From Muribaculaceae bacterium (GTDB taxonomy: Bacteria; Bacteroidota; Bacteroidia; Bacteroidales; Muribaculaceae), in contig JAIECF010000110.1 of NCBI GenBank assembly GCA_029068655.1, positions 1 to 64,000 on the forward strand: a DNA stretch of 64,000 bases. The letters are read 5' to 3'. The first letter of the stretch is position 1. The number at the start of each line of letters is the position of its first letter. A program made the position numbers and the translations under genes. Positions 8,797 to 47,258 of this stretch are shown one piece after another. Below the pieces are notes generated by a model. The model saw only the letters and a list, made by a program, of their open reading frames with translations, had not been told where the DNA came from and did no database searches.

Positions 8797-8880
8797 ATGG
8801 TGCGTGAATTAATTTGGGTTGATTGAATAATTTTAAATTAAATATTTGGAATATTATTACTAATTGATTATATTTGCACC

Positions 8881-27854: not shown

Positions 27855-30800
27855 TTAGAGTTTCTGCAATCGCTCCCTTGAGTCGATGGCTTCCGGATGA
27901 TCTTCCGGGAGAAGGCTGATGGCTTCCTCGAACTTCGCTTTGGCAGTCTCCATATCTCCCATCAGGGCATAGACTCTTCCTAAGCGGTTAAGATGTACAG
28001 CTTCATATTCAGTCCTTCCGGTCTCTTTGGAGATGCTGTAAGCTTTGCCTATATACTCCAATGCCTTGTCATATTCTCCCAAGTCGCGGTATTGAGCACC
28101 GACATTATTATAGGCAGTAGCAGTAGCCTTGCCTTTTTTGCTTGAGTTCCTAAGATACCATTCCAATATCTTGATTCTATATTCCAATGCCTTTTGATAT
28201 TCCTCAATCTCTCTATAAATATCACTTATATTACTGTAAGAAGTTGCAATATCAGGATACTCCTCTCCATAAATATTCAATTCTATGTCAACAGCTTTCT
28301 GTATGTATTTCAATGCTTTTCTATGGTCTCCTAGCTTATAGTAGATCAGACCTATATTATTTAAGGATGTTGCTGTATTAGGATGCTCTATCCCAAAAAA
28401 TTTTATGATAATATCAAGTGCCTTATGGTTGTATTCCAAAGCTTTGGGATAATTTTTAAGTTTTCCATAGGTATAACCGACATTATTGAAGGATATAGCA
28501 GTATCCGGATGATCTTCACCGAAGACATTCATCCGGATATCAAGAGCCTTCAGCTGATATTCCAATGCTTTCTGATTGTCTCCAATCTCACCGTAAGTCG
28601 AGCCGACATTATTGAAGGAGTTGGCTGTATCCGGATGCTCGTTTCCAAAAACTTTCAGGTAGATATCAAGAGCTTTCAGCTGATATTCCAACGCTTTCTG
28701 ATGGTCGCCAGTTCGCCCGTATGTTAGACCTACATTGTTGAATGAAGTAGCAGTGTACAGATGCTTCTCTCCGAAAACATTCATGTTGATCTCCAGCGCC
28801 TTCTGGTTGTATTCCAATGCCTTCTGATACTCTCCAAGATCACTGTAAGTAGAACCGACATCATTGAATGATGTGGCGGTATCAGGATGCTCACCTCCTA
28901 AGCGTTCTATACGGATATCAAGAGCCCTCAACTGGTACTCTAATGCTTTCTTATGGTTTCCAAGGTTATTGTAATTTTTACCTACATTGTTGAGTGAAGT
29001 TGCTGTGTAAGGATGTTTCTCTCCGAAAATAGTCATGTATATGTTAAGTGCCCTAAGATTGTATTCTAATGCCTTCTGATGCTCTCCAAGCTCACTGTAA
29101 GTCGAACCTGTATTGTTGAAGGATGTAGCCGTATCTAGATGCTCAGCCCCAAAGATTTTCATACGAATATTAAGTGCCCTTAGGTTGTATACCAATGCCT
29201 TCCGGTGGTCTCCAAGCCGACCGAAGGTATAACCGACATTATTAAAGGATGTACCCGTAGACGGATGTTCATCCCCTAAAACTTTCATTCGGATTTTTAA
29301 AGCTTTGTATTCGTATTCTAAAGATTTACGGTGGTCTCCAAGATCTCCATATGTCGACCCGACATTATTGAAAGAACTTGCTGTATCCGGGTGCTTTTCC
29401 CCAAAGACTTTCATACGGATATCAAGAGCCTTCAGCTGGTATTTCAGTGCTTTCTGATAGTCTCCGAGCTCTCCGTAAGTGCAGCCCACATTGTTGAAGG
29501 ATATAGCTGTATCCGGATGCTCGACCCCGAAGACTTTTAAATATATATTAAGTGCCCTCTGAAGGTATTCAAGCTCTTTCTGATGGTTCCCAAGATTTCC
29601 GTACGATGTTCCGACATTATTGAAAGAATTTGCGGTATCTGGATTCTCGGTCCCTAAGACCTTCATGCGGATATCAAGAGCCCTCAGCTGGTATTCCAAC
29701 GCTTCCTGATTGTCACCGAGCTCTCCGTAGGTACAGCCGATATTATTGAAGAATGTAGCAGTATCCGGGTGCTCCGTCCCGAATACTTTCATAAGGATTT
29801 CAAGAGCCTTCAGCTGGTATTCCAACGCTTTCTGATGGTTGCCAGTTCGCCCGTATGTTAGACCTACATTGTTGAAGGATATGGCTGTATCCTTATGTTC
29901 CGCCCCTAACACTTCCATGCGGATATCAAGAGCACTCTTATGGTATTTTAAAGCTATTTGATAATCTCCAAGTTTTCCATAAGTCGCTCCCAGATCATCC
30001 AAAGACTCAGCCGTCAATTCATTCTCTTCATCAAAAATCTTTTGGGAGAGCTTGAGAGCCTTTTCCTGCAGGGGAAGTGCCTTGTTGAATTGTCCTAACA
30101 GAGAATACAGTGCTCCACCTTTAAGAAGAGCATTGATATATTCTCTTGAATTTTCTCCGAATGCTTCTTTGGTGTATTCAATCACCTTTTCCTGGAGTTT
30201 TAGGATCTCCTCTCGCCAGCCCTCTGACATCTCGTTTTCGAGGGTTTTGATCTTGAGATTCAGTTCCTCGATGTTGGTCCGGAGTCCCTCTTCGTGTAGC
30301 CGCTTCATCTGCAGGTTATGCTCGGCATCCTTGAGAATATCCTCAGTGTCAAGGATGGCGGCTGCGCCCTTGTTGTCGCCGGCATTGAAGAGCTCGATGG
30401 CCTTACGGAGTCTGTCCGAGCATTTCTTGTTGCTCAGGCGGGCGATGTCGATGGCGGTGCTCCAGATGCTCTTCTCCATCTTGTCGCGCTTCTCCTCCTT
30501 CTCGCGCAGCTTTTCGGCCTTCTCGGCGTATTTCCTATGGTCCGGCTCATGGTCTTCCAGCCATTCCTTAAGGTCATCGATGTCGTCGAGCAGGTCGGTA
30601 TATGTCTCGTTGTTTCCGAGGAAAGGAATCTTCATGAGGTCGATAAAGAGATCCTTGCCGAAGACGGTGATCTTGGAATCGTTAACCTCCACCGGGCAGG
30701 AGTTCTGCAGGTGCTGGTTCTGGAAGAGCTGGAACTGGAGCAGGAAATCGTTCTTCAGCATGTTTACGTCGGAGAAGTGTCCCGTGAAGTGTCCGTACGC

Positions 30801-31178
30801 CTCCGGGAATGAGTCGCGGAAACGTGTGAGATCCTCCGATAGGCCGACAACGCTTTTGAAGTATACATAGAGTTTAGCCGGATTTACTCCTTCCTGGCAT
30901 ACCCTCTCATAGGCTTTGTTCAGTTCATTTACCGTGAAGCTTCCGAAATCTTTGCCGAACACTACCATGCAGATCTCGCAATCCGCAAGAGTAGAGTCAA
31001 GACTCTCCGATGAGGAGTATAGGGGGGAATCAGCAAGATAATCCCACTTGGTGAGGTATATATGGATGTCCTGGGGCTCCAGGATAAGATTCAGGTGCTC
31101 CACGAGGTCAGACAGCTCCAGGCTTTCTTCATCCAGTCCTGTGCCCAAAGCAAGGAATATCTTCACTCTCTTTTTCAT
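27855..31178 (-). CDS. DUF4062-like N-terminal domain plus coiled coil plus ~16-18 kinesin-light-chain-type TPR repeats
   Basis: N-terminus MKKRVKIFLALGTGLDEESLELSDLVEHLNLILEPQDIHIYLTKWDYL; repeated 42-aa DTATSFNNVGSTYGELGDHQKALEYQLKALDIRMKVFGEKHP units. Confidence 0.85.
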   Translation of the reverse strand: MKKRVKIFLALGTGLDEESLELSDLVEHLNLILEPQDIHIYLTKWDYLADSPLYSSSESLDSTLADCEICMVVFGKDFGSFTVNELNKAYERVCQEGVNPAKLYVYFKSVVGLSEDLTRFRDSFPEAYGHFTGHFSDVNMLKNDFLLQFQLFQNQHLQNSCPVEVNDSKITVFGKDLFIDLMKIPFLGNNETYTDLLDDIDDLKEWLEDHEPDHRKYAEKAEKLREKEEKRDKMEKSIWSTAIDIARLSNKKCSDRLRKAIELFNAGDNKGAAAILDTEDILKDAEHNLQMKRLHEEGLRTNIEELNLKIKTLENEMSEGWREEILKLQEKVIEYTKEAFGENSREYINALLKGGALYSLLGQFNKALPLQEKALKLSQKIFDEENELTAESLDDLGATYGKLGDYQIALKYHKSALDIRMEVLGAEHKDTAISFNNVGLTYGRTGNHQKALEYQLKALEILMKVFGTEHPDTATFFNNIGCTYGELGDNQEALEYQLRALDIRMKVLGTENPDTANSFNNVGTSYGNLGNHQKELEYLQRALNIYLKVFGVEHPDTAISFNNVGCTYGELGDYQKALKYQLKALDIRMKVFGEKHPDTASSFNNVGSTYGDLGDHRKSLEYEYKALKIRMKVLGDEHPSTGTSFNNVGYTFGRLGDHRKALVYNLRALNIRMKIFGAEHLDTATSFNNTGSTYSELGEHQKALEYNLRALNIYMTIFGEKHPYTATSLNNVGKNYNNLGNHKKALEYQLRALDIRIERLGGEHPDTATSFNDVGSTYSDLGEYQKALEYNQKALEINMNVFGEKHLYTATSFNNVGLTYGRTGDHQKALEYQLKALDIYLKVFGNEHPDTANSFNNVGSTYGEIGDNQKALEYQLKALDIRMNVFGEDHPDTAISFNNVGYTYGKLKNYPKALEYNHKALDIIIKFFGIEHPNTATSLNNIGLIYYKLGDHRKALKYIQKAVDIELNIYGEEYPDIATSYSNISDIYREIEEYQKALEYRIKILEWYLRNSSKKGKATATAYNNVGAQYRDLGEYDKALEYIGKAYSISKETGRTEYEAVHLNRLGRVYALMGDMETAKAKFEEAISLLPEDHPEAIDSRERLQKL
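28080..30080 (-). repeat. Tandem ~126-bp repeat block encoding 42-aa TPR units
   Basis: At least 15 consecutive units of exactly 42 aa, counted in the ORF translation. Confidence 0.85.
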
Positions 31179-31424
31179 TATGATAATTGTTTCGAAGTAT
31201 ATTGGGGGAACAGTTATATGTACCAATGATAAGACAATAACATGAAATGCCTTTCCTGCACAACAGCAAATAATGGGTGTTTTATAAAACGTATGTTACC
31301 TTTTGCCATCGCGGGACGCGCCCGGAGGTCGCTAACTACACTGGGGACACTCGAATTCTTGAGTAAAGCGTTATTTGAACCGCATTGCACGGGCCGTGCA
31401 TCCCTACAAGAGCGTAATATGAAT

Positions 31425-31970
31425 CTAATAGTGTAGTAGCTTTTCGCCGTTCAGGGTCGCGTGGCTTTCGGTGAAGATGACGGGATATTTGTCTTCCAGG
31501 TTATCACGCTGGTAGCGGTCCCATACCTTCAGGAAATCTTGCTTCAGGGAAATGATAGAATCAAAATTCTCGGTCGGTATTTCCGGATATGTGTCTCTGA
31601 ACGTCGATTTAAATTCCTTAAGTTCGTCGGTCTCGGTGCCGCCATTCTTAAAGAAGACAGTCAGTTTGCCGTTGTCATTGTCGCCGTCGCATAGTTTGTC
31701 GTAGGCCGTCTTGAGTTCAGACTCGGTGTATTTACCGAATCTTGTAGCGAACAAGACGAAGCATAGGTTGCATTGCTCAAGAGTCTTATTGTATTCCTCC
31801 TGTTTGTGTCGTTCGCTCATGGAGGCGTCGAGATACTCCCACTTCACGAGGTAGATCCTGACATCCTCGTTTTCCAATGCGAGGTTCATGTGTCCGATAA
31901 GATCTGCAATTTCCAACCGTTCTCTTTTCAGTTCCTCGCTCGATGCCAGGAATATCTTGAGTTTTTTCAT
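31425..31970 (-). CDS. Stand-alone DUF4062-like protein, paralogous to the N-terminus of the TPR protein
   Basis: MKKLKIFLASSEELKRERLEIADLIGHMNLALENEDVRIYLVKWEYL aligns with the N-terminus of 27855..31178; TAATG overlap with the TIR gene. Confidence 0.8.
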   Translation of the reverse strand: MKKLKIFLASSEELKRERLEIADLIGHMNLALENEDVRIYLVKWEYLDASMSERHKQEEYNKTLEQCNLCFVLFATRFGKYTESELKTAYDKLCDGDNDNGKLTVFFKNGGTETDELKEFKSTFRDTYPEIPTENFDSIISLKQDFLKVWDRYQRDNLEDKYPVIFTESHATLNGEKLLHY

Positions 31971-33346
31971 TATTTTACATGATTACTTTTTATCGGGAAG
32001 AGTGGAATATCGTGTCCTGAAGCTTTCTCGTAAATCCTATCTGCTATTTGATCTATTGAGACGAATTTTTCTGTGGCTGGGCTAAAGAACTGCAAATTCT
32101 TTATACTTACCTCATAAGTTTCATTAATATATCTAATCAGAGCATCCGATCTTATATCGGTCTCTCGGATTCTCGACCAATTAATATTTCGGTTAGTAGA
32201 GAATTTAGGAATATCGTTCCTAAATTGATATTTACTTAAAACTCTTTTAAGAGCCCATTTAATCTTCCATTTAGGTTGGAAATCGAAATTCCAAAACTCT
32301 ACGATATTTTGTTTGATGAAAGTTCTGGATATGTCATACCTAAGAGTATTCCTTATGAAATCATACAATCCATCCCAGTATACCTGTATGAATGTTTCGT
32401 CTACTGTGGAATATTGGGCTTTTTGCATCCTGCTCTGGATGATGAATTTTTCTAGAATCTGTTCGGCTGTAAAGGATACTAATTCCTTTTCTGAAGAGGC
32501 CTCAGAAGCCGCCGTTTCTTTTATCGGTTTCTCCGATTCGTCAGCATTAGCAGCTCTCTTCTCGCCATGAAGGGCTGCATAAAGCTTTTTATGAAGTTCT
32601 ATCTGTTTGGGATTGTTTTTGATAAGGTATTCAACCCCTTCAATACCATCCAACGGATGAAACTTCCATCCGCACACGCTGCAAAACTCTTCTTCTAAAT
32701 CGAACTTTGTATTGCAAATCCGGCAGTATTTCTTATCAACGCCTATAGACTTAGAGAGATTTCTTAACTTTGTAATCTCTAATTCTATCTCATACTGTTT
32801 TTTTACGAAAGTCTCCGCATCCTCCTTAATCTGATTAAGAAGGTTGTTTCTTTCTTCCTCCTTTTCCTTTTTTTTCAGCCTTTCTTGTTCTTCCTGTCTG
32901 GATTTCTCTTGGATTTTTTTGATCCGGTCTTTATGCTCCTCGGTTTCTACATAATCGAGTAGTCGATCCTGATAGTTCTCGAACTGAAAGGATTCATATC
33001 TCCTTAAAGCAATTGGCAACTCACGCGGAGTCATGTCTTTTAGGATTGTCAATATGTTGCCGTTTTTCTGTTCATCGAGTTTTAGATCGACAAACAATCC
33101 CCATTCATATTTTACATATTTCGACTTCGGATATTCCGGGTCGGAAGAAAACACAATAATATGCTCTGCTGTATCCAGAGCCTCCTCAATACTTTCTCTG
33201 TATTGAGAATCTCCTAATTTACGTAGTTCTTTGGATGCGAGGAATGTATTAAAGTGATTTTTGGTAAGAAAATCATATACTTCCTCCGCATACTTATAAT
33301 CCTCGCTCTTACACGAGATAAACACATCGTATTTAGTTGAGTCCAT
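31970..33346 (-). CDS. TIR-domain protein with coiled coil and zinc ribbon
   Basis: YDVFISCKSEDYKYAEEVYDFLTKNHFNTFLASKEL, AEHIIVFSSDPEYPKSKYVKYEWGLFVDL (candidate catalytic Glu), CRICNTKFDLEEEFCSVCGW. Confidence 0.88.
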   Translation of the reverse strand: MDSTKYDVFISCKSEDYKYAEEVYDFLTKNHFNTFLASKELRKLGDSQYRESIEEALDTAEHIIVFSSDPEYPKSKYVKYEWGLFVDLKLDEQKNGNILTILKDMTPRELPIALRRYESFQFENYQDRLLDYVETEEHKDRIKKIQEKSRQEEQERLKKKEKEEERNNLLNQIKEDAETFVKKQYEIELEITKLRNLSKSIGVDKKYCRICNTKFDLEEEFCSVCGWKFHPLDGIEGVEYLIKNNPKQIELHKKLYAALHGEKRAANADESEKPIKETAASEASSEKELVSFTAEQILEKFIIQSRMQKAQYSTVDETFIQVYWDGLYDFIRNTLRYDISRTFIKQNIVEFWNFDFQPKWKIKWALKRVLSKYQFRNDIPKFSTNRNINWSRIRETDIRSDALIRYINETYEVSIKNLQFFSPATEKFVSIDQIADRIYEKASGHDIPLFPIKSNHVK

Positions 33347-33360: not shown

Positions 33361-33687
33361 TTATTTTTTTAATGAAACATGAGATATGATATTTTTATTT
33401 TTAGGGCGGATTTCGAAGCCGAGCTTGATGATGTGCTTCAGGGTATTGATGGCCGTGTTCCGGTCGTAATCCTTTTCGATTTCCGGAAGCTCTTCATAGG
33501 GGATGAGGCATGGTGTCTGTTTCAGAAGGTCATCTCTCTTATCTCCGTATGACCATCCTTCAGCCATGCGGTTCTGTGCCCATACCTCATGCACATTCTT
33601 GGCTATCGTCTCGCTTAGACATGCCAATTCCGCGGGTAGCTCTATATCGGCAAGGTCTGCCGGTTTTGGTATATATCGGTCTTTCAT
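33361..33687 (-). CDS. Stand-alone RyR (ryanodine receptor repeat) domain protein
   Basis: 108 aa; VHEVWAQNRMAEGWSYGDKRDDLLKQTPCLIPYEELPEIEKDYDRNTAINTLKHIIKLGFEI matches the RyR repeat pattern. Confidence 0.9.
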   Translation of the reverse strand: MKDRYIPKPADLADIELPAELACLSETIAKNVHEVWAQNRMAEGWSYGDKRDDLLKQTPCLIPYEELPEIEKDYDRNTAINTLKHIIKLGFEIRPKNKNIISHVSLKK

Positions 33688-33701: not shown

Positions 33702-35804
33702 TTATATTGACGAAATCCTTTCGTTTTCTTTGATTTTTGAGTACAATTCTCCGAGATTACTGTTTATATCTGTATCGTAATCCCTTACTTTTGGATTGGG
33801 ATCATATCTGGTCAAATCATAATTACTGCAGATATCCACATGTGCCTGTCTGGCTTTATATTTATCCTTTAATTCCTTGAATTCAATTTTGATATCTTCA
33901 AAATTGGTTGATTTTTTTCTGATGATGTCAAATTCCTTTTGTTCATCTTCATTTAAAGGTCTGAATCCTAACAGTATCCTTTCGGTATTCCATCGATTGT
34001 GTTCTACCATCTGCAATTGATTTCTTGTCTCTCCATCTTCAAATTTTTTGTTGAATGAAGTCTCCGGATCTTTAGAAAATTCAGATTCCTTGAATCCCAA
34101 AGACCTAAGCTTAACAAACAACATATTAGCAGAATAGTTGCTTGACCATTTATTCAATATGTCATTGTTATCCCAATGGGGAATCCACCCGTTTGACGTA
34201 TTGTAGAGGTAATCTATAATTGTTCCATACGTATCATTAAGGAGATTCTCAGAATAGCATTCATTCAGCATGCCGAAAGCTCGGAATCTGTTTCCTCTGC
34301 CAGGCAGTTCCCGCATGAGTTGAACAGCGATATCGCTTTCCTTCTGCCTCACCAACACCATGTTGAGGGAGGGCCCATCGATCACCTCCGAAGGCAATCC
34401 CATGCTTATGGCAAGATTCCTTTCCGAGTCTTCTCCGCATAATGCAATGGTCACGATGCGATTGGACTCCGAGCAGCTTTCCTTCAGATATTTCCTGATC
34501 TCAGGCTCAGCTACATCTCCCTTGATGAATTCCCACTCTATGTCCATGAAGTTTTTCGGACCAAGATATCTGTAAGGAGATGTGGAATCTGCATCCGCCA
34601 GAGGATCTTGCCATTCCCCGTCAGCTTTCCATCGTGCTAAGTCAAACAGCACGGAATGACGGTTTCTGAACCTTTCACCCAATTTGCCGGCGTCAGGATC
34701 TATGAACGATATTCTGGAATATGTCTGATAGTTCCCTTCCTTGAAGTTGGGAAAGTGGAGCACCTGCGCGGCATTAGTAGCCAAGGCTTTGGCCAGTCCT
34801 GTCATCCCGATCAGTATAAGATGCACGCTTCTGTCGCTCTCCTTTCCGATTCCGGAGCCATCTAATGGAAGGTATCCGTTACCGTCGAAGCTTGTCAATG
34901 AAAGTACTTTCTGCCCCCATATTTCATTGAAGTTAAAAGGATGGAAATCCAGGTTGTCGATAGCGCGCTCTTTGGGTTTTCCGCAGAAGTCAACCTGCTG
35001 CAAAAGGGAGAACATTGTGTCGGAATTGATCTGGACATAGCAAGGCACTTTTTCATGGGCCTCGGTGGTGGCGGAGGCAGAAAGACTCCTTCCCACGGTA
35101 CTGTGGCACGCTGTTTCCTTCAGAATAATGGCCGATATCTTCTTTACGCATTCAAGACATACATCATCGTGATCCTCTCGGCCTTCTTCACCCACAATAT
35201 AGATCTCCTTGGGATTACAGCCCAAAGAAAGACGCTCAAGATCATCATTGGCATTGATTGCACCACTCATTATTATGAGATTTCTTTCTATACTATCGTC
35301 AATGTTGGCATGAAGCCAATCCCGTATCTCTGTACTGTCTCTTTCACACATCAGCAGGATGTGGCTCTTAGGGTATTTTTTCTGAATTTTGTCAAACAAT
35401 GAGGGAACACTGCGGTTGAACCCCAATATTATGACATGGTGAGATACCTTATAAGTTGTTTCACCATGTTGATAGTTCTCTACCCTCAGCGACAGAATGT
35501 TGCTGATAACGGATATAAGCATACCGCTGAAAATAACCAAGCCCACCAAGGCTATTATCAGCGCGAAAGGAGCGAATAGATATTCTGGCGGCTTACCGGG
35601 GTCCATCAGAAAGAACAGCACATCATACCACCGGCCATTACTTTCCGCGCCATTGGAGTCATAGAAGTCTCCGCTATAGCTCAGAACGATAAGGACCAGA
35701 TAGACGGCCAGCATTATCAGGAACAGCCACATTATCTGCAGCCCGAATCCCTTGGAGAATGATCTGTCGAAAAACAGTAAGAAACTCTTTCTTTTATGTC
35801 TCAA
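33702..35804 (-). CDS. CASTOR/POLLUX-like ion channel with RCK/TrkA-N-like region and C-terminal RyR-like region
   Basis: Two TM helices, DPG motif after pore loop (LFFLMDPGKPPEYL), VSHHVIILGFNRSVPSLFDKI Rossmann start, C-terminal VEHNRWNTERILLGFRPLNEDEQ...HVDICSNYDLTRYDPNPKVRDYDTD. Confidence 0.82.
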   Translation of the reverse strand: MRHKRKSFLLFFDRSFSKGFGLQIMWLFLIMLAVYLVLIVLSYSGDFYDSNGAESNGRWYDVLFFLMDPGKPPEYLFAPFALIIALVGLVIFSGMLISVISNILSLRVENYQHGETTYKVSHHVIILGFNRSVPSLFDKIQKKYPKSHILLMCERDSTEIRDWLHANIDDSIERNLIIMSGAINANDDLERLSLGCNPKEIYIVGEEGREDHDDVCLECVKKISAIILKETACHSTVGRSLSASATTEAHEKVPCYVQINSDTMFSLLQQVDFCGKPKERAIDNLDFHPFNFNEIWGQKVLSLTSFDGNGYLPLDGSGIGKESDRSVHLILIGMTGLAKALATNAAQVLHFPNFKEGNYQTYSRISFIDPDAGKLGERFRNRHSVLFDLARWKADGEWQDPLADADSTSPYRYLGPKNFMDIEWEFIKGDVAEPEIRKYLKESCSESNRIVTIALCGEDSERNLAISMGLPSEVIDGPSLNMVLVRQKESDIAVQLMRELPGRGNRFRAFGMLNECYSENLLNDTYGTIIDYLYNTSNGWIPHWDNNDILNKWSSNYSANMLFVKLRSLGFKESEFSKDPETSFNKKFEDGETRNQLQMVEHNRWNTERILLGFRPLNEDEQKEFDIIRKKSTNFEDIKIEFKELKDKYKARQAHVDICSNYDLTRYDPNPKVRDYDTDINSNLGELYSKIKENERISSI

Positions 35805-35832: not shown

Positions 35833-36309
35833 TCAATCGTCTTTATTACCATCCAAATCCAGTTCCTCATTAATCCTTTCAAGTTCCTGATTCAGGTGAT
35901 TCCCATATTTCTCCAACTCATCCAGACCATAGTCTTCCATGCTTTCTGTCCCTTCCTTATATCCCTTCATGAAGGCTCCTGCTCCTTCAAGAAATGGAAT
36001 AAGCTCGTTGCCGAGTTTTTTCGCTCCTTCGGTCATGATGATCACGGTGAGTTTCCCTTCTACACGGCCAAGGGCTCTGAGCTGTTCAGAAGAGAATTCG
36101 CAGTCCTCCATGTCATAGTGGATGTCTTCAAGTTCCTCGAGGGCATCGGCCCATTCGTTGACACCCCACTTCTCGCCGTTTTTTTGGATTTTCTCCGAAA
36201 GACGATCGAGGCGGTCCATAACTCTCTCTTCGTGAGGTCTGCAGCCTGTAAAAAGAACTGCCATGCATGCCATCAGCACGCTGCCTGCAATGAGTCTTAT
36301 CATCTTCAT
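35833..36309 (-). CDS. Hypothetical lipoprotein, mostly helical
   Basis: Lipobox AVLFTGCRPH; overlaps the upstream gene by 4 nt. Confidence 0.75.
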   Translation of the reverse strand: MKMIRLIAGSVLMACMAVLFTGCRPHEERVMDRLDRLSEKIQKNGEKWGVNEWADALEELEDIHYDMEDCEFSSEQLRALGRVEGKLTVIIMTEGAKKLGNELIPFLEGAGAFMKGYKEGTESMEDYGLDELEKYGNHLNQELERINEELDLDGNKDD

Positions 36310-38930
36310 GCAATTTCCAATACTTGTTCAAAATCCTGAATGGTGTCGCCCTCTTTGATTTCGCCGAGACGGAAACCATCGCCAGTTGTCTCGCAATAGA
36401 GATATTCTATCCCATTGTGTTCCTTCACGACGTTGTCGGCTGTGATGCCGAGAATGTCTTTTATGACAGGCTTATACTCCACTCCTACGGCTGCGTGTCC
36501 GTATTTCTCCGACATCATGAAGAGGGTCTTGTAGCCAAGTTCGCGGAAGAGCGCGATGGTCAGTGAAGACTTGCAGTCGCAGTCTCCCTCCTTGTCGTAG
36601 AGCACCTCGTCGGGAAATCTCATATATTCCTTGGAGACATCGTTGTAGTTGATTCCTGAAGAGAACTCATCTACCTTATAGTTGATGTTGGGCATCTGGC
36701 AGAAATCGAGGGCGAACTGCAGCATCTCGGCCTCATCCAGGCCTGCTTCCGCGACACTTCTTTTGATGTATGCGGCGATTTCCCTTACCTTTCTCTTGCG
36801 CTCGGGTTCGCGGTCTATGTAGTCGAAAATGAAGGAGACATTATCAAGATAGTGGTGACCATCCATACCATAGCTGACAAACGGATTCTTCTCGCGAAGG
36901 TCTTTCATTTCGTCTGCATCGAATTCGAGAGTGTAGGAACCGTGAAGTTTATTGCCTCTGCGCTCGTCGAGGTCCCAGTTGTAGATGCTCGTCTTACGCT
37001 CAGCGTTGCTGTTGTCCCCCTCCATAGAGATAAGTGGAATCTCCACTTTCGTCTCGAAATCACTTGGCCTCATGCCGTCGAGTGATCCACCGATGCGGAA
37101 GCCGTCGGAAGATGTTTCGCAGAAGATATATGTCTTCCCGTTGTATTCAAACGTCGCGTCTTCCATCTTCTGGCCGAAGATAGTGCCATCTTTGATCCAG
37201 TTCCGCTTCGCCTCGATACCGATTGCGCCGTATTTCTGCATTCTCGAGTAGAGGAACACCACGTTGTAGCCGGAATAATGAGCAAGCACTGCAGCCAAGA
37301 ACGCCTTGCTATTGCTGTCTCCCTCCTTGTCATAGAGCACTTCATCCGGGAAGCGGATGTAGTCCTCGAATTTAAGAATAGCATCGCTCTCGCGGTTGAG
37401 CACATAGCGGATATTGGGTTCCTGCACGAAATCAAGCATGAACTGCAGGGAGTCATTTTCGGTATCGATTGAGTTCTTGGCGGCGATTTCCTTGATACGC
37501 TTTGCCACAAAACGGCTTCTTGCCGAGACGCCTGCGTGAGAGTCTACATAGCCGAACATCTCCTTGATCATGGTTGGCAGTGGCTTATCGTTGCGCTGGT
37601 TGAAGAACGGATTTGCAAACCTCAGATCGCGTATATACTGGGAATCGAAATATAATTCCATTCTGCCCTTTTTATCCGGGTCTGTCTCAAGCGCCCATTC
37701 ATACTGCCTCTCTATGTCGCCTGTAGGATTCTCTGCTATTTCATCGATTTCTTCCTCCTCGTCGGGAGCGTATGGATTGATGATCTTCCAAGGGCGGCTG
37801 TTTGGCTTGAGAGCCATGTTTATCCCGACTGCGGAACTTATCGCCATGGCAAGCGGTAAGAAGTCAAACCTGTAATATCGGAAGAAGAGCATGGTCACAG
37901 TGCAGCAGCCGAGTATCAGCATGTCGTAGCCCCGCTGGCTCAGCATTTTGTTGAATAGGTCGATACGCGGCTGTATGGTATCGGAGCGTTCGATGCACTC
38001 GATCTTTATAGCCCTTACGATGACCCACACAGCGTAATATGCCAGATAGAGAGGAGCATCCATCCAGAACTTATAGCCGATGAACCGAAGTCCCAATATC
38101 TTGACCTGTATGATATACCATATGACATAGATGACTGCATATATGAAAGCCGCAGGAAGCGCAGTGTCTTTCCATCCGTAAGCCGGGCTGTTGTAATGCT
38201 CTCGGTAATCGTTTTTATTGTATAGGTCATAGAATACGCCGAAAGCGGCTGCGCGAGCCTCGGGAGGCATTGCATCCTTAGCTGAAGAATGTATGCCGAT
38301 GTAGCTGGCCACTGCCACCGGTATACGCATAGGTTTCAACTTATTCCTGTCCTTTTTCTCCTTCTTGACTTTCTTCTTTAAATTCTTCTCCTCCTCCTCA
38401 ACTGTGGACTCAGCATTCACGAAAGCTGGTCCGGCCTCGGACTTATCCTTCGGCAGCCCCATGTAGGCGTTCAGGCTACACTTCAGCCAAAACGTCTTCC
38501 ATGTGCGTTCGCCTACGGCAGTCGGGGCCTCCGGATCGGAAGGACGGGCCGTATAGCCTATCTTCTCCGGTTTGCTCCCATCGGTCTTCTTATAGATATA
38601 TCCATCCTGGGAGATATAGCCGTAGGTACGGTATTTCGGTTTCACGGTGTCGTCTTCGGGATCAGTGACGAGTACCTCCACGTATGCGTTGTCGTCTCTG
38701 CCTTCTCCCATCTTGATGCGTCCTATGGCCACACCTTTGGCCTTGTCCAGCAGATGCACTTCGGGCACTTCGTAGGCGTCAGACGGCGTAAGGCAGCCGA
38801 TGCTCTGCATCTTCTTTGTGCGCTTTTCTGCTACAGCAATCCAGACCTTGATCTTAAACAGCTGCACGACCAATACAAGCAGCGCCAATGCACCGCTACC
38901 AATAAGCGCGTATGTTAGCATATTTGACAT
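36306..38930 (-). CDS. Multi-TM protein with two tandem transglutaminase-like domains
   Basis: Repeated RFPDEVLYDKEGD(CDCKS|SNSKA)...KYG(HAAVGVE|AIGIE)...(CETTGDGFRLGE|CETSSDGFRIGG) blocks; N-terminal and central TM helices. Confidence 0.82.
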   Translation of the reverse strand: MSNMLTYALIGSGALALLVLVVQLFKIKVWIAVAEKRTKKMQSIGCLTPSDAYEVPEVHLLDKAKGVAIGRIKMGEGRDDNAYVEVLVTDPEDDTVKPKYRTYGYISQDGYIYKKTDGSKPEKIGYTARPSDPEAPTAVGERTWKTFWLKCSLNAYMGLPKDKSEAGPAFVNAESTVEEEEKNLKKKVKKEKKDRNKLKPMRIPVAVASYIGIHSSAKDAMPPEARAAAFGVFYDLYNKNDYREHYNSPAYGWKDTALPAAFIYAVIYVIWYIIQVKILGLRFIGYKFWMDAPLYLAYYAVWVIVRAIKIECIERSDTIQPRIDLFNKMLSQRGYDMLILGCCTVTMLFFRYYRFDFLPLAMAISSAVGINMALKPNSRPWKIINPYAPDEEEEIDEIAENPTGDIERQYEWALETDPDKKGRMELYFDSQYIRDLRFANPFFNQRNDKPLPTMIKEMFGYVDSHAGVSARSRFVAKRIKEIAAKNSIDTENDSLQFMLDFVQEPNIRYVLNRESDAILKFEDYIRFPDEVLYDKEGDSNSKAFLAAVLAHYSGYNVVFLYSRMQKYGAIGIEAKRNWIKDGTIFGQKMEDATFEYNGKTYIFCETSSDGFRIGGSLDGMRPSDFETKVEIPLISMEGDNSNAERKTSIYNWDLDERRGNKLHGSYTLEFDADEMKDLREKNPFVSYGMDGHHYLDNVSFIFDYIDREPERKRKVREIAAYIKRSVAEAGLDEAEMLQFALDFCQMPNINYKVDEFSSGINYNDVSKEYMRFPDEVLYDKEGDCDCKSSLTIALFRELGYKTLFMMSEKYGHAAVGVEYKPVIKDILGITADNVVKEHNGIEYLYCETTGDGFRLGEIKEGDTIQDFEQVLEIA

Positions 38931-38936: not shown

Positions 38937-41900
38937 TCAATCGTCGGGATTTAGTACTTCTTTGTAGATTTCCTTGTCTCCGTATGACTCAGCGAAAAAG
39001 TCGGAATCGAGCAGTCTGAACCATTCCGTAGAGGAGTCATCATCGGCCAGTGCCCATAGCAGCAGGGTAGAGGGATAGGGGAAATAAACTTTTCCCTGAT
39101 CGCCGGTGGGTTCTGCTTCGGATGATTCCTCATTCTCGACAGTCTCGGCTTCAGCCTCTTCCTGACTGGCAACCCCGCCGAATTTCTTTTTCAACCAATC
39201 CTTGCCCTCGGCATAGACCCTCTGACGACGTACATTCTCATCGAAATCCTCCATTGGTAGGATGCGGTTGAGGGAATATTCCTCGAAGCTTCTCCATCGC
39301 GTAAGGAAAATATATTTCCTATAAAGATGATTGTGCTTCGCCACCTGCTCGTATTTGAAGGGAGTGGAGATATAATCGAATGCGTAAGGCACTGCGCGCG
39401 GGTCGTTGACCTTTATATCGGCCATCTCCAGATCTGCCGACGAGGTGACCTCCCCATTGTTGGCTGCATACTCCACCATAGGCTCAAGCACATCCTTGGG
39501 GACCACATGCCCTGTGACGTTCGCTACCAGGAATTCCCCAACGGTGTCGTTGATACGCGGCACCAGACTATCTTTGATGGTCTTGCTCAGATGCGTCTGG
39601 AAATAGGCGAGATGTTCCTTCCAACGAAGTTTCTGCTCGTTTTCCTGCTGTTCTTTGGTGACCAGCTCTTCCTCTCCGGTCTCGCTTACCCTGCGGATAA
39701 GGCTTTCACAGAGATCGACATCTTTATAGAGTTCCATCATCAGGTTGCGATGCTGATGGAGGAATAGATAATATTCCCTATCGCTGACCTCACTGGTCTT
39801 ATAAGGGATGTAGTTGATCCTTATCTCAGTATCGACTGCCTGAGGATACGGTAGGAGGTTATTCCGGCCGAAGCCCCCTCCGAGCAGGGGCTGATTGAAC
39901 ATAGTGAAAGGAATCAACGGGCGGATGAGGATGAGGTCTTCGTAGCCTTTTTCCACTTCATTGCGGATGGCTTCCGTACGCTTTATGTATGCGTCGCCAA
40001 GAGCGATCATCTTGTCGTAGAATCTCTTGATTTCCGATTCGATGCGGTTGGCAACGCGGGCGTATGCGTCGTGAAGGAAGAGTGCCTTGAGGTCGTTTAC
40101 GGCCTTACGTTTCCTGCGTTCAAATCTGAACCAGGAAATAGCCTGCAGGATTACGGGCACAAAGAAAATACCGATCGACCACCATTCCGAATAGCGACGC
40201 ACCTTTCCAAGGTTGATGTAATGTGGCGATATCATGACAAGTATCGGCACCACGGCAAGAGAGAGCATGATGCCTAAGAGTATAGCGCGGTTGAAGCGGC
40301 TCATTATAGTCGCTTCTTGGCTAAGAAGGTCGTTGAGGTCGGTCACTACCTCCTTTTTCATCTCCGTCTGACGCGTACCGCCGTTCTTATCGCGGATGTC
40401 CTGCTCGTATGCATCGTGGTAGTCCATAAAGGCATCCTGCATGTCGCGGGGCACATCCTTCTCCACCTCATCCCAGAAAGCTCCGCGGATAGCCCCTGCG
40501 ATTTCCTTTTTCTTCTTCGAGAAGCTGTCTTGCATCTGCTTGAAGAGATCTATGACCGTAGGAAGTCCTCCGTCGTTGGCCTCAAGTTCGGAGAATATCT
40601 CTTTAAGTCGATTGAAGATGTTGAGCTTAGCAGTGTTGAATTTCTTCTTGGTTTCCGATGCGAGGATCTCGAGGGCTCCACGTGTGCTGTCATCGATGGT
40701 CGACATTATCTGATGCATCATGTTGCGCGTGAAGTCCCGCAGATATTTGTTGTAGTAGTTCCTTTTAAGGTATTTATGGAAGAAGTCCTTTACCGGATGG
40801 GGACGCGGCTCTTCCAGCTTCACTTCCTCTCTGTCCAGGTGATTGATGGTATTCCAGTCAAAGAATGACGCCGGACTATACTCATCGTCTTTAAATATCG
40901 CCAGGCTGAGGTTTGCCTTCTCATCCGTACCCTTTTTCTTAAGGCTGCGCATAAAGTCGATACCGAACTGATGGCGAGCCTTCAGGTCTTCGTTCTCTAC
41001 ATCATACACTACCGAGGTCGCTCCCATCGAGAAGTAGAAGTCTTCGGCCGAGGGTGTACCGCTGAGCAGCGGATGAGTGGAGTTGGTGGCGTAATATAGA
41101 TGTATGATGCATTGGAATAGATATTCCTGAAGATGATTGTCTGAAAGGGCTGAGTAATGGCAATCGGTACGAGTCTGCACATCCTGATAGATCATGACAT
41201 GGTCGTAGCCCCTCATGTCTGAGACTTTATGCTGCACGTCTATTTCCTGCAGAGTGCGCTTCATGCTCACCCGCTTATCTATCTGCAACGCATTAAGGTT
41301 GCTCGGGATATAAATCGCCCCGATGATTTCCATACCCTGATGGATGTGGTGGGCTAGAATGCGCCCTCTCTCCTTCTGCAGCAGACCTGCCACTGAAGGA
41401 AAGATAAGGCGTGTGAAGTCCTCATTGAGGTCTCCCAGCACCACTACGTTGAATTTTACATCCGGAGGAGCATTGCTTTCGCGCAACCCCCTGATGAACT
41501 TCTGACCTTCAGCCACGAGGTCAGACTGAAACTCATATAGTTTTCTGGCAGTTGTCCAGGCGGCTTCCTTTCGTGGGGTTGTCTGAGAGATATCTACCTT
41601 ATAATCCTTGTCGGCCATGGGAGAATAGCGCCACCAGTCACCCTCAATCACCGATTCTTTTTTGGCTTTTCTCTCTTCGTCGTTTTCAATGAGTTCTTCC
41701 ACTGAAATTTCGGATACCGCCCTGGAGTCGGCGCCGGAGTCGCCTTCTGTTTCGTTGTCGGTCGCGGATGCGGGTGCGTGCACTGGGTGTTGTACATCAT
41801 GATCTTCCCCTGCCACATTGGCTGTGGTTTGTGTCTCAGCATCGCTACGGGTCTCTTCCCCGGGGTCGGAAGTCCGCTTTATATAGACATTGTCAATCTG

Positions 41901-41972
41901 ACCGAGGAGAGCCTCGAAGTGCTCTCTCCGGTCAGATTGTTTCCTTAAGTCTATGATCCAAAGTGGAAGCAT
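38937..41972 (-). CDS. Large uncharacterised protein with central TM pair
   Basis: 1011-aa ORF; TM helices AILLGIMLSLAVVPILVMI and WSIGIFFVPVILQAISWF; 6-nt gap to the next gene. Confidence 0.78.
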   Translation of the reverse strand: MLPLWIIDLRKQSDRREHFEALLGQIDNVYIKRTSDPGEETRSDAETQTTANVAGEDHDVQHPVHAPASATDNETEGDSGADSRAVSEISVEELIENDEERKAKKESVIEGDWWRYSPMADKDYKVDISQTTPRKEAAWTTARKLYEFQSDLVAEGQKFIRGLRESNAPPDVKFNVVVLGDLNEDFTRLIFPSVAGLLQKERGRILAHHIHQGMEIIGAIYIPSNLNALQIDKRVSMKRTLQEIDVQHKVSDMRGYDHVMIYQDVQTRTDCHYSALSDNHLQEYLFQCIIHLYYATNSTHPLLSGTPSAEDFYFSMGATSVVYDVENEDLKARHQFGIDFMRSLKKKGTDEKANLSLAIFKDDEYSPASFFDWNTINHLDREEVKLEEPRPHPVKDFFHKYLKRNYYNKYLRDFTRNMMHQIMSTIDDSTRGALEILASETKKKFNTAKLNIFNRLKEIFSELEANDGGLPTVIDLFKQMQDSFSKKKKEIAGAIRGAFWDEVEKDVPRDMQDAFMDYHDAYEQDIRDKNGGTRQTEMKKEVVTDLNDLLSQEATIMSRFNRAILLGIMLSLAVVPILVMISPHYINLGKVRRYSEWWSIGIFFVPVILQAISWFRFERRKRKAVNDLKALFLHDAYARVANRIESEIKRFYDKMIALGDAYIKRTEAIRNEVEKGYEDLILIRPLIPFTMFNQPLLGGGFGRNNLLPYPQAVDTEIRINYIPYKTSEVSDREYYLFLHQHRNLMMELYKDVDLCESLIRRVSETGEEELVTKEQQENEQKLRWKEHLAYFQTHLSKTIKDSLVPRINDTVGEFLVANVTGHVVPKDVLEPMVEYAANNGEVTSSADLEMADIKVNDPRAVPYAFDYISTPFKYEQVAKHNHLYRKYIFLTRWRSFEEYSLNRILPMEDFDENVRRQRVYAEGKDWLKKKFGGVASQEEAEAETVENEESSEAEPTGDQGKVYFPYPSTLLLWALADDDSSTEWFRLLDSDFFAESYGDKEIYKEVLNPDD

Positions 41973-41991: not shown

Positions 41992-44900
41992 TTATTTCTT
42001 GAAATCGTTGACTGAAGCGTAGTCGTTTCTCAACAGATTGAAGAAGATGCTGTAGATGCGGCGTTCTTCGAGAGTCGGGGCATCGCTCTTCTTCTTGTTG
42101 AGGGTGTCGAGCAGATTCTTACGCTTTGCGGCATAGTTCTGCTTCAGGATCTCCTCTCCTCTTATCGGGGTCTCACCGGGCACGCGGCTACGGATGATAG
42201 CCTGGATCAGTCTGTCGGTAGTCTCGCCGAAACGGTCGTTGTGATAGAGGTCGATGTATGTCTCGAATCTCTCCACGAAGGTGTTCCCCTCGATTGTATG
42301 GAAGAGGGCGCGTCCGTCGGCCTCGGTGCAGATGGCAAGCTTGCCGTCGGTCTTTGCGCCGTCAGTGATCAGAGCCTTGGGAAGGGCGATCTTCTCTGAC
42401 ACCTCAGAATCCTGAATATACATCGTATCGATATAGAGTTCCTTATCGTACTCATCCTGATAGAACAAGGGTGAGAGTTCCTCGCGAAGCTCGTTGAGCA
42501 TCAGCATCTTCACGTATGAGTGGTGCTGGGGAAGCACTTCGAGCGGGAGATGGTCGATGGTGAGCTTGTCGAGGTGCTGCGCGAAGTCGCCATGGAAATG
42601 ATATTTCTGGCGGAAGGTGGCATGGTCGTAGACATTCTTGATCGCATCGTAGATGCGGTAGTCTCTGAGTGCCAAGCCAAACTTTGACTTGAGTACCATA
42701 GCGGAGTTTTCATCCTCTCCTTTCTCGAAGCGGTGTTTGTTGTTGCCTTTCTGATAGCCGAGCATCTCCTCAGCGAGGTCTTCGCTGGCAGTCACGAAGA
42801 TGATGTGCTCCTCTTTCTTTGTCACTGCTATGCGGTTGTTGTTGTAGCTGAAGAAGAGCGCGGGATTGAGGGAACGCCTTACGTCATCCTTTTCATCGTT
42901 GGTAAGCTCGGAGAAGAATGAGTATATCTTCTTATTGTACCAGCCTTCCTGAATCGATTTGTCTTGCTGGAGTATTTTTTCAAAAGAGATTTCGGCAAGC
43001 TGAAGGAAGTCGTTGATTACCTTTTCAGCCTTAACGTTGCCTTGGTCTGCAATGTTTTGGTTTGCGAAGAATCTGATCTCGACGGTCTTCTTGTCGTCAT
43101 CCGCGTTGGCTACAGTCAGCTTATACTGATTGATGAGATCGACCTGCCTCTTAGAAAGATTCTCCTCATTATATGAATAAAGGGAATTGTTGACCAGTTT
43201 TTTCAGGTCATCGCGTTCCGGAGTTTCGTCTTCACTGGAAGATATGACTTTTGTATACTGCTTGCTGAAGAAATTGCCGGCCTTCCAGCCATTGCCATCG
43301 CAGATATTCTTCAGCATCGGAAGGTAGACAGTAGTGACGTCAAGGGCGGCTTCACCAAATTTAGTGGCGAGCTTATTGTATTCCTTGACAGCATCCGCAT
43401 TCATCTCCTGGGCTTTGCTCATGATGCCCTGGATATAGCGGGCGAGTTTTGACAGCTCGTCATTATGCTCGTCCATTACGAAATCCCTCTTGATTTCGTC
43501 TGCCCACTTTTTCACTTCTGCAGTTATCACCTCATCGGCATACTGAGACACTAAATTTTTATATTCCCTTATGTCATCGGCATTGTTTTTAAGGCCGATT
43601 TTTTCTTTAAAGTCGATAGTCTCTGCATCTGTGCTTGCTTCACGAACCTTTTGATCCGATACACCTTCGTCTTGTGCCGCGGAGTTCCCTTTTGGCTGGA
43701 GCTCCTTGTTGAGTTTTTCTCTTACGGCTTTGATGGCCGCATGGGCATATGCAAGTCCATGGTTGCGGATCAGTTCTTCTGCATCCTGCCAGATCTGGTT
43801 GACAATGACCTTCTTTGTCTCATTCTTCTTTTCATCCTTACTGGCATTAGCCATCGCGGTTTTAAGGCTGTCCAGGTCATTGTTGATGTTGTCGAATTTA
43901 TATCGGTCATCCATGACTTTGGATTCGACATCTATTCCATCGATGAGTTCTGTGATCGCAGCAGATTGGTCGGCGACCAGTTTGTGGGCAATTGTATGCG
44001 GCTCCTTTTCATTCAGTTCCTTGAATAATTTTGCGGCGATCTTATCCACATCCTCCTTGCTGACTGTGGCTTGCTTTTTGTCGCTGCAAAGGAGCCAAGA
44101 GCGAAGGATATCTCTTTTGAAGCGCGCACGCATATACTTGTTGTATTGCTCGATAGGCTTCTGCAGAGAAACGTATCCCATCGGCACGAGGAACTCCTCA
44201 TGGTTCTTCTCCATGATATCGTTCATGTAGTTGTCGATATCGCTTCGGAATGTGGCGCCTGCCTGGCCGTTGTGCAGATGATAAAGCATCTCGGCGGTAT
44301 TCTGGATCATCGTGCCGGGAGAGCCGAGGCTTGTACCCTTGTCGGTCTGGATGTCTACGGGGATGACATAATAGAAGGGGCAATAGCGTTTCTTGGAGTC
44401 GACGAGGTTATAGTCGTTGTTGAAGGCCAGTCGATGCATCACTGTGTTCTGCTTCTCGTCGTAGCTCATCTTCTTGAAGGCCTCGAGCTCGGAGAACACA
44501 CCATAGGCGTTGAGCGAATACTTCTCCTCAGTGGAGTTGGCGTCGATAAACACCTTGGGCATATAAAGAGTATACACGAGCTGAGGATCGCCGTTTCCTA
44601 CGATCTGATGGTGAAGCTGATTGATATGATAGAGCACATCGTTGAAGATGCCTGAACCGGTGCCTCCGAGCGAGCTGCTGACGAGCCAGTAGTAGATCAC
44701 GCAGTCCTCTCCACCGATAGTCTTGACATCATTGAGTGAAGAGATGGCAGACTGCAGTTTGGATTGGAAATCGGCCAGAGAGTGGGCGAAGGCGATACGC
44801 GACTTGATACGGAATGCGCCTGCACCGAACGAGAGCGGCTGATCAGGAATCTTAGTTGCCAGCTCAGGAGAGCAAGCCTCAAGAATACGCTTATTGATTA

Positions 44901-45219
44901 GAGAGGAAGATTCTCTCTTGGCCTCATAATATATGGCCGATGGATTGGCTTTCCCTAAATTGATGAGGTCGGTCTGCGGATTGATGAAGGGTACGTTGCC
45001 GTTCTCGAAAGAAGACCGGTTGTCGCGGTTTGCGTTGTCAATGTCGCGCTGGTCGGTGTCGATGAAGATGAAGCGATAGTTATCGTTCATCGCCTGCAGG
45101 CGAGTTTTCGATGCAGTCGCAGTCGGGAAGCGCTTCTCATAAACTTTTGACTTGATCTTAGCCACAGTCTTGACGCCCTGGCCGCCAATGCCGATAAAGA
45201 TATGTTTCTCGTTGGCCAT
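41992..45219 (-). CDS. Tubulin/FtsZ-like GTPase family protein (Tubulin_2-like)
   Basis: N-terminal FIGIGGQGVKTVAKIKSKV, tubulin signature SSSLGGTGSGIFNDVLYHI, 1075 aa. Confidence 0.87.
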   Translation of the reverse strand: MANEKHIFIGIGGQGVKTVAKIKSKVYEKRFPTATASKTRLQAMNDNYRFIFIDTDQRDIDNANRDNRSSFENGNVPFINPQTDLINLGKANPSAIYYEAKRESSSLINKRILEACSPELATKIPDQPLSFGAGAFRIKSRIAFAHSLADFQSKLQSAISSLNDVKTIGGEDCVIYYWLVSSSLGGTGSGIFNDVLYHINQLHHQIVGNGDPQLVYTLYMPKVFIDANSTEEKYSLNAYGVFSELEAFKKMSYDEKQNTVMHRLAFNNDYNLVDSKKRYCPFYYVIPVDIQTDKGTSLGSPGTMIQNTAEMLYHLHNGQAGATFRSDIDNYMNDIMEKNHEEFLVPMGYVSLQKPIEQYNKYMRARFKRDILRSWLLCSDKKQATVSKEDVDKIAAKLFKELNEKEPHTIAHKLVADQSAAITELIDGIDVESKVMDDRYKFDNINNDLDSLKTAMANASKDEKKNETKKVIVNQIWQDAEELIRNHGLAYAHAAIKAVREKLNKELQPKGNSAAQDEGVSDQKVREASTDAETIDFKEKIGLKNNADDIREYKNLVSQYADEVITAEVKKWADEIKRDFVMDEHNDELSKLARYIQGIMSKAQEMNADAVKEYNKLATKFGEAALDVTTVYLPMLKNICDGNGWKAGNFFSKQYTKVISSSEDETPERDDLKKLVNNSLYSYNEENLSKRQVDLINQYKLTVANADDDKKTVEIRFFANQNIADQGNVKAEKVINDFLQLAEISFEKILQQDKSIQEGWYNKKIYSFFSELTNDEKDDVRRSLNPALFFSYNNNRIAVTKKEEHIIFVTASEDLAEEMLGYQKGNNKHRFEKGEDENSAMVLKSKFGLALRDYRIYDAIKNVYDHATFRQKYHFHGDFAQHLDKLTIDHLPLEVLPQHHSYVKMLMLNELREELSPLFYQDEYDKELYIDTMYIQDSEVSEKIALPKALITDGAKTDGKLAICTEADGRALFHTIEGNTFVERFETYIDLYHNDRFGETTDRLIQAIIRSRVPGETPIRGEEILKQNYAAKRKNLLDTLNKKKSDAPTLEERRIYSIFFNLLRNDYASVNDFKK

Positions 45220-45241
45220 GAGTATTATGGTATTTTTATTG

Positions 45242-46882
45242 TTATTTTTTCTTTTTAATATTGATTGTCACTCGGTGGGTGATGTTCTGCCGGTTTTCAC
45301 CGCATTTCAGCGATACGGAAGTCGGCGAACCGTATCTGCTCAGCTTACCCTGCATTTTATCGCCGTTTCTCACGTATCCTTTACTCGGCTTCCATATGAA
45401 GACGGGTTTCTTTAGACTGAAAGGACTGAATGTCTTCTTGACTACATCAATCGACCATGGAGCATCGGAAAGATTACATTTGTTGTTGCCTCCCGCTCCG
45501 ATTTTCAATGAGGCCTGTGGGGAAATATAGATACGCGGGGATGGCCCTACGATATTTCCTGTAGCATCCCTGAGTGAAACCTCACCTTCGAATTTCTCGG
45601 ATCTGTTTCTGCCTGCGGCTTTGATCACGAGGAAGATATATATGATGAGCAGCACGAGCAGTGTGACGCAGAGCCAGAAGGGGAGCCAGAAAGTCCAGAG
45701 CCATCCGCTACGTTCGGTCGAAGTGTCGGGTATCGGCTTGTCGATGCTGAGACGTTTAAGCTCGCTGTCGTAGTCCGTAGGTAGCATGAGCCCTATATTG
45801 AGTGCCTCGTTGTCATATCTATGCAGACCGATACTCTTGTTTTTGAGTCTACCCAGCTTGATGTCCTTGATGACGGTGTCGGTCGTAATCTGCCATACTC
45901 CTTTATTGTTTTTAAAGTAAAAATCTGATCCTGAGTCTGTGTAGGTGGAGTCAATCTGAAGCTTCGTGTACAGCTTATTGGGCTTCCAGTGGATCTCTGC
46001 TATGGTATTGCCGTCAATGTCAATATTTGTGCTGAAACGGGGATTCAGGTTTCTTGCATTGTCGATCTCGATCACGGCCTTGAGTTTTTCGGTCATGATC
46101 TCGCGTGCGAGCTGGTCAAACCAGTGGGAGATTGCAGCCTGGTCGGAGATGGCATCAACAACATCAAACTTGCGGGTGACGCCGGTGTTGTTGAATACCT
46201 CCTCCTTGAGCTGATCAAGGCAAAATCCCTTCATGGTCCCCATTGGAGGGAGCTTCATCGCCACCACGCGAGTATGCTTGCCATCTGTGACATTTTCGAA
46301 ATTCTTATTCAGATCCACCAACAAGCCGGAATGGATGGGAGTCTCTCCTTGGCCGGGAAGATCGTTGAGGAAGTCGGTGATGATCACCACCACATTCATG
46401 TCTATATCCTGATTATTTCGCATTGAACCGTTGACGGCCTCAACTGCTTTGGCAACATCCGTATTGGCGCGAAATGTGCGGTCATAACCTGCATTATTAT
46501 ATAGCGTTGACAAAGCGTTCTCAAGAGTCTGCTTTGTACCTTCGTTATCGATCTTCACCTCAAGACCGGGGACGTTTGACTTGGCTTCGGTGCCGAACGG
46601 TATTACTGTCACCTGCTCCCCGTTTGGAAGAGAGCGGCTGAAAGCCTTCAACGCCGGTGTTACTATCGAATCGTATTTTACCATTGAGCCGGATACATCT
46701 ATGGCAAAGATATAATGCGTATGCATGTTCTCCAGTTCCGGATGATAGAGTCTCGTAAGTTTCGGGAACTGCTGCTCCAGATATGTCATGGAAGATGTAT
46801 TTCCTTGCGTAGATGTCTGAGCAAGACTTAATCCACACGTCAGGCATAGTAAAAGAAAAAATAACGTTGATGTCTTTTTCAT
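45242..46882 (-). CDS. vWA-domain protein with signal peptide and C-terminal TM/FHA-like tail
   Basis: MIDAS HYIFAIDVSGSMVKYDS; TM FWLPFWLCVTLLVLLIIYIFLVI; start trimmed to MKKTSTLFFLLL. Confidence 0.85.
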   Translation of the reverse strand: MKKTSTLFFLLLCLTCGLSLAQTSTQGNTSSMTYLEQQFPKLTRLYHPELENMHTHYIFAIDVSGSMVKYDSIVTPALKAFSRSLPNGEQVTVIPFGTEAKSNVPGLEVKIDNEGTKQTLENALSTLYNNAGYDRTFRANTDVAKAVEAVNGSMRNNQDIDMNVVVIITDFLNDLPGQGETPIHSGLLVDLNKNFENVTDGKHTRVVAMKLPPMGTMKGFCLDQLKEEVFNNTGVTRKFDVVDAISDQAAISHWFDQLAREIMTEKLKAVIEIDNARNLNPRFSTNIDIDGNTIAEIHWKPNKLYTKLQIDSTYTDSGSDFYFKNNKGVWQITTDTVIKDIKLGRLKNKSIGLHRYDNEALNIGLMLPTDYDSELKRLSIDKPIPDTSTERSGWLWTFWLPFWLCVTLLVLLIIYIFLVIKAAGRNRSEKFEGEVSLRDATGNIVGPSPRIYISPQASLKIGAGGNNKCNLSDAPWSIDVVKKTFSPFSLKKPVFIWKPSKGYVRNGDKMQGKLSRYGSPTSVSLKCGENRQNITHRVTINIKKKK

Positions 46883-47206
46883 GATGCGATGTCTATTTAA
46901 TGCTTTTATCAATGTCCGGAAACGACCATTTCTTTGAAGTTAGGGTCTTTATTGCAAAATTAGCAATTTTTTTGATTCATTCAAAATATTTTTGAAAATA
47001 TATAATATATAAGGTCCAATTGTTCGTTCCTTTAAAAGGAATTTCTTTGAGAGACTCCATATTGCCTATATACAAGAACGATGACATTTCCTCGACTCAA
47101 TGTATATTTATGTAGTCCACGAGGGAACTCGGATCGAACCGGGCAAGGCTTTTGCTTACGCTTGTTATAAATGTTTTGGGAATGGGCGATGCGGACTGTC
47201 TTTGAG

Positions 47207-47258
47207 TCGAATAATAGCCAAAAGTGGATGTTTTTACCCACTTTTGGCTATTATTCGA
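47207..47258 (-). terminator. Perfect 21-bp-stem hairpin between the Sel1 gene and the vWA operon
   Basis: TCGAATAATAGCCAAAAGTGG - 10 nt loop - CCACTTTTGGCTATTATTCGA. Confidence 0.6.

Follow-up and report, generated by a model that had tools for sequence, protein, structure and literature searches.

A conserved four-gene operon of Bacteroidales encoding a Tubulin_2 protein, a periplasmic vWA protein and two further membrane proteins

Introduction

FtsZl1, a family of FtsZ-like proteins named in 2010, spans bacteria and archaea, and its genes occur in operons with vWA genes whose products are secreted or transmembrane (TM) and carry an intact MIDAS (Makarova and Koonin 2010; PMC2875224). The published FtsZl1 alignment, which includes Bacteroides caccae, was not reliable beyond helix H5; no C-terminal similarity was seen, and only the first domain was recognised (PMC2875224). 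A P-loop GTPase, a protein kinase and an OmpA-type protein were described as frequent, non-universal partners, and membrane remodelling or vesicle formation was proposed for FtsZl1 in general; a reviewer of that paper objected, as a main point, that a filament in the cytosol can have no direct contact with partners in the periplasm (PMC2875224). Tubulin and vWA proteins were also placed among the GTPase-centric conflict systems described in firmicutes and actinobacteria (Kaur et al. 2020; PMC7159879). In a limited literature search, no experimental work on FtsZl1/Tubulin_2 proteins was found.

A pair of this kind is present in the 64-kb stretch of DNA analysed here, which as a whole is called the window. 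The pairing itself is not new. What is new is that the vWA and tubulin genes form one half of a fixed four-gene operon, and that a complete tubulin fold is predicted for the Tubulin_2 protein.

Gene order and distribution

Both open reading frames of the pair were confirmed on the minus strand, at 45242..46882 (vWA) and 41992..45219 (tubulin). The vWA gene is transcribed first (46882 to 45242) and is followed after 22 bp by the tubulin gene (45219 to 41992), an arrangement that bears out the operonic pairing proposed in the first-pass annotation. The conserved unit extends beyond these two genes, through position 36306, and has the fixed order vWA, tubulin, a third gene for a 1011-aa protein ('TMcc') and a fourth gene ('TGase'). 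When one genome per species was scanned with the tubulin alignment (84,980 genomes in all), 34 further loci were obtained, among which L127 and L124 appear to be the same contigs as L058 and L059, and L106 and L107 are two loci from one MAG. Wherever the contig reaches, the core order and strand are kept in the window and in all 34 loci, and the intergenic gaps are mostly shorter than 40 bp. A complete vWA gene is absent from L102, L105 and L129, the contigs of which start at or near it. The window, L058 and L059 are close cassettes, with five genes in common in the same order.

The MAGs that carry the operon belong to Bacteroidales and come for the most part from rumen and gut. A divergent copy (L117) occurs in a MAG binned as Fibrobacter, and transfer or a binning error are both possible there. 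In a sample drawn evenly from the phylum, the third gene was found in one of 395 genomes, the window's own, so that the four-gene set must be regarded as rare. It has no match in plasmid, phage or viral collections, and the idea that it belongs to a mobile element was rejected on this ground. Pairwise distances of the four core proteins correlate at 0.87–0.97 (host common descent is not controlled for in these values), as expected from co-inheritance.

An exact match to a Bacteroidales-type promoter, TTTG-N19-TAATTTTG, lies 5' of the vWA gene on the minus strand (46955..46985). The motif TTTG-N19-TAnnTTTG occurs 9 times in the window (0.41 expected), and is found 5' of the vWA gene in 9 of the 34 loci, compared with 11 of 740 random stretches. 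Further upstream, between a Sel1-type gene and the operon, the sequence reads as a perfect 20-bp inverted repeat with a loop of 10 nt (47208..47257, no strand assigned), probably a terminator or insulator; its core has no other match within the window.

The Tubulin_2 protein

The tubulin gene (41992..45219, minus strand) encodes 1075 aa, divided into an N-domain (∼1–340), a helical insertion (∼356–660), a predicted second tubulin domain (∼669–886) and a C-terminal extension. The signatures reported earlier are in place, FIGIGGQG at residues 8–15 and GGTGSG at 185–190, and at the DNA level the pattern GGTG[ST]G occurs once in the 64 kb, against 0.01 expected by chance. The Tubulin_2-type assignment is likewise secure: the match to PF13809 scores 119.6 bits (cut-off 27; E 2.3e-34) and covers positions 1–355 of the 356 in the profile, and all 34 relatives match the same family. 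Together with the T1 and GGTG[ST]G loops, the helical middle and C-terminus, and the linked gene for a MIDAS-containing vWA protein, this score places the protein in Tubulin_2/FtsZl1. The nucleotide loops T1 and T4 (GGTGSG) are nearly invariant in the 34 proteins, as is the T7-like segment FRSDIDNYMNDIM (324–336), which may correspond to T7 itself. No TM segment is predicted. Among the Tubulin_2 proteins of Bacteroidales, those of the window type branch off on a long stem as a group of their own.

Sequence profiles of the window tubulin found no tubulin in the PDB, and with hhalign the window family alone gave an insignificant score against FtsZ. With a wider Tubulin_2 profile the N-domain did match FtsZ (95.2%, E 2.9e-8). 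An AF2 model built from 34 sequences has a mean pLDDT of 72.6 and a pTM of 0.52, with several loops below pLDDT 50. When candidates from Foldseek were aligned to it with VIA-align, the list was filled by tubulins (Z 18.9–20.8, 312–343 residues aligned), with 328 aligned residues in the best match (Z 20.8) and a Z of 19.7 for BtubA; identity over the aligned residues is 9–15%. Foldseek alone gave no match below E 0.001, and phage TubZ was second by E-value (0.032). The structural match to the tubulin fold, which had been set as a test of the first reading, was thus obtained for a predicted model. It spans model residues 3–886 and tubulin residues 1 to ∼424, and the model resembles a whole two-domain tubulin that is split by a large helical insertion, with long helices at ∼410–625 and a mixed but largely helical C-terminus. 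Since the N-domain is estimated to cover only about two-thirds of the aligned residues, the second domain would lie at ∼669–886; the sequence profiles against the PDB and FtsZ gave no support for it, so this claim rests on the model. As a negative control, an AF2 model of this protein built from three sequences, poor at pLDDT 36.8, was passed through the fold search and gave no tubulin match, which indicates that such a match is not general to models of this length.

The vWA protein

The first gene (45242..46882, minus strand) starts with ATG at 46882, a TTG at 46912 being possible as well, and its product matches VWA_2 (E 6e-8). Its features agree with those first described: a signal peptide (1–23), a vWA domain with MIDAS residues D62-x-S64-x-S66, T141 and D170, a single TM segment (402–420) and a ∼120-aa basic tail. 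Four of the MIDAS residues (D62, S64, T141, D170) do not vary among the 31 family members, with Ser or Thr at position 66. The vWA domain of TssR is also matched by three members of the family. A positively charged flank follows the TM segment, and the last 120 residues should therefore be cytosolic. With the vWA domain in the periplasm, the tubulin could be reached by this tail only.

The third and fourth core proteins

The third gene (38937..41972, minus strand) encodes a protein of 1011 aa (starting MLPLWIIDL) that matched no Pfam family. A TM hairpin is predicted at ∼558–619, with the parts N- and C-terminal to it in the cytosol, and the protein is expected to be mostly cytosolic because the outside loop of the hairpin is short. 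The annotation that preceded this analysis proposed the vWA protein as a membrane adaptor that would anchor or regulate the tubulin. The genetic link between the two is conserved. That proposal left out the third gene, the product of which is, given its size, its hairpin and its mostly cytosolic location, the more obvious candidate for a membrane anchor.

By eye, the third protein is collinear with the tubulin N-domain over an 'FQS' helix, strand 4, a strand 5 that ends in Y-[IM]-P, strand 6/helix 7 and 'MGxxSV'. In hhalign comparisons with wider tubulin profiles it gave P 0.003–0.03 (P 0.003 with one tubulin group and 0.0032 with a merged profile). About 3 in 100 block-shuffled control profiles scored as high, and for this reason the likeness is treated only as a lead. 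The third gene might conceivably encode a degenerate tubulin that no longer has a nucleotide site and is provided with a membrane hairpin of its own; the operon would then specify a membrane-bound tubulin system of two subunits, a GTPase and a pseudo-GTPase, with a transmembrane link to a vWA sensor in the periplasm. We consider this improbable. If true, one operon would combine a tubulin that is a GTPase with a pseudo-tubulin bound to the membrane.

The fourth gene (36306..38930, minus strand) encodes a membrane protein with two transglutaminase-like domains, the first without Cys and His, the second with Cys786-His812-Asp851. Members of its family have at least three TM segments, one of them N-terminal, and transglutaminase-like domains (DUF553/Transglut_core) that number one or two. 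Where there are two, the first has nearly always lost Cys or His and the second has Cys-His-Asp/Glu; every two-domain protein except that of L103 has this set in at least one domain, and most single-domain versions retain Cys-His-Asp. This pattern suggests that one active site is required. In L105 the gene is in two pieces (6721-8844 and the next ORF, 707 and 181 aa), either by a frameshift or as a real split.

Genes downstream of the core

The genes 3' of the core vary among the loci and encode metallopeptidase-like proteins, nucleases, lipoproteins, ion channels and TIR proteins; because of this variability, their link to the core is one of neighbourhood only. The commonest fifth gene is that for a membrane-anchored metallopeptidase-like protein. 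An N-terminally anchored downstream protein of 331–361 aa has HExxH in many members and lacks it in others. A DNA/RNA non-specific endonuclease (PF01223) lies directly 3' of the operon in two loci (L099:17821-18726 and L119:15882-16670), an Ion_trans channel follows the core in L124, and a TIR-Sel1 protein and an RCK-like channel do so in L127.

In the window, the downstream genes lie on the same (minus) strand as the core. The first encodes a small lipoprotein (35833..36309) that is found in part of the relatives, the second a two-TM, RCK-like protein of ion-channel type (33702..35804) with homologues next to the core in L058/L127 and on its upstream side in L117. The latter protein has no Pfam match and a search of solved structures found nothing; the RCK assignment is drawn from the L117 homologue (a weak Slo-like RCK match, E 0.015) and from the layout. 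After a 108-aa ORF (33361..33687), there follows a gene for an accessory TIR-domain protein with a zinc-ribbon-like segment (31970..33346), in a place similar to that of the TIR-Sel1 gene of L127. Its G+C content is 0.369, compared with 0.487 for the window. The last two accessory genes may be bystanders: one encodes a DUF4062 protein (31425..31970), the other (27855..31226) a protein with a DUF4062-like N-terminus, assigned by eye, and ∼17 TPRs, of which a homologue is found directly 5' of the vWA gene in L058.

Possible function

The protein families and domain contents, the operon order, the signal peptide and TM segments, the conserved MIDAS and nucleotide loops and the predicted two-domain fold were all obtained by computation. 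The reading that we prefer, tentatively and as somewhat short of an even bet, is a membrane-anchored scaffold of the tubulin family that is controlled from the periplasm through the vWA protein and acts on a membrane peptidase and on strain-specific effectors. Under it, we infer GTP binding by the tubulin, the contacts between the parts, the order of events and the outcome. The periplasmic vWA domain would use its Mg-dependent MIDAS to bind a ligand or an extended peptide, and the single TM helix would relay its state to the basic cytosolic tail, which could then recruit or regulate the Tubulin_2 protein. The 1011-aa hairpin protein would anchor the latter, as monomer, oligomer or filament, to the inner membrane. 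Assembly may then switch or position the transglutaminase-like membrane peptidase and, according to the strain, other effectors of the envelope as well (a metallopeptidase, a nuclease, a lipoprotein or an ion channel).

The best of the other readings, by analogy with the systems of Kaur et al. 2020, is an immune or inter-bacterial conflict system, in which the tubulin/vWA core would sense and set a threshold and the effectors would be the variable genes next to it (TIR, nuclease, metallopeptidase, channels). It has this precedent in print (PMC7159879), and the patchy distribution and the toxin-like, variable genes beside a fixed core would fit it, as would the TIR, DUF4062 and channel genes 3' of the core in the window and the TIR and channel genes of L127. 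Against these stand the core proteins, which match no PADLOC family (an already known defence system was rejected for this reason), and the commonest fifth gene, since a membrane-anchored metallopeptidase-like protein is not a typical effector. Moreover, no match to GAP1, GASH or DO-GTPase was obtained at E≤1 when the operon and the genes around it were scanned with Pfam, and the operon has no P-loop motif. On balance, a conflict system seems doubtful.

Slightly less favoured still, and in our opinion unlikely, is the role that Makarova and Koonin suggested for FtsZl1 (PMC2875224), in which a filament bound to the membrane would remodel it or drive the formation of vesicles. The complete tubulin fold predicted here and the membrane location of the partners agree with such a role, but the filament would be cytosolic and out of direct contact with periplasmic partners, as the 2010 reviewer noted (PMC2875224). 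A cytoskeleton for cell division or DNA segregation, FtsZ- or TubZ-like, has the tubulin fold alone in its favour and is very improbable, given a separate FtsZ-family match in the window's genome, the lack of copies in plasmid, phage or viral collections, and the absence of the operon from most Bacteroidales genomes, which means that it is dispensable.

Replacement of FtsZ was rejected because of the same separate match, and TubZ/RepX plasmid segregation was set aside, no plasmid or phage location having been found. The FtsZ-family match itself (L163, C231:27545-27991) is short, within an ORF of 210 aa that has no FtsZ_C match, and this probably reflects assembly breaks in an 86% complete MAG.

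With a predicted tubulin fold in a compact set of four genes, the operon offers a minimal set with which to test whether Tubulin_2 proteins polymerise. It is equally suited to the question behind the reviewer's objection, namely how a cytosolic tubulin could couple to periplasmic partners.

Comparison with known systems

A second layout in Bacteroidales (L073:8411-16252, also L074, L079 and L080) consists of genes for a secreted vWA protein (DCTGSM), a Tubulin_2 protein of ∼930 aa and a third protein of ∼1100 aa (929 and 1085 aa in L073 itself). It resembles the window in gene order and in the tubulins, which are homologous (hhalign 99.8%), but the third proteins have no detectable homology (hhalign 5%). 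The third protein of the L073 type has a weak match to tubulins of its own (P 0.0008).

The systems of Kaur et al. 2020 likewise combine a tubulin, a TM vWA protein and variable neighbours. The FtsZl1/PF13809 vWA operons share with the window an N-terminal FtsZ-like domain, a long helical middle and an operonic secreted or TM vWA protein in which the MIDAS is intact. Neither the operon nor its neighbours contained a P-loop GTPase, protein kinase or OmpA in Pfam scans; since the 2010 description calls these partners frequent, membership in FtsZl1 does not depend on them. Unlike the operons described in 2010, that of the window has two other conserved membrane proteins in their place, and its tubulin is predicted to contain the second domain that was unrecognised then. 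With BtubAB, TubZ and eukaryotic tubulin the window protein has the predicted fold in common, to which it adds a helical insertion of ∼300 residues and a long C-terminal extension.
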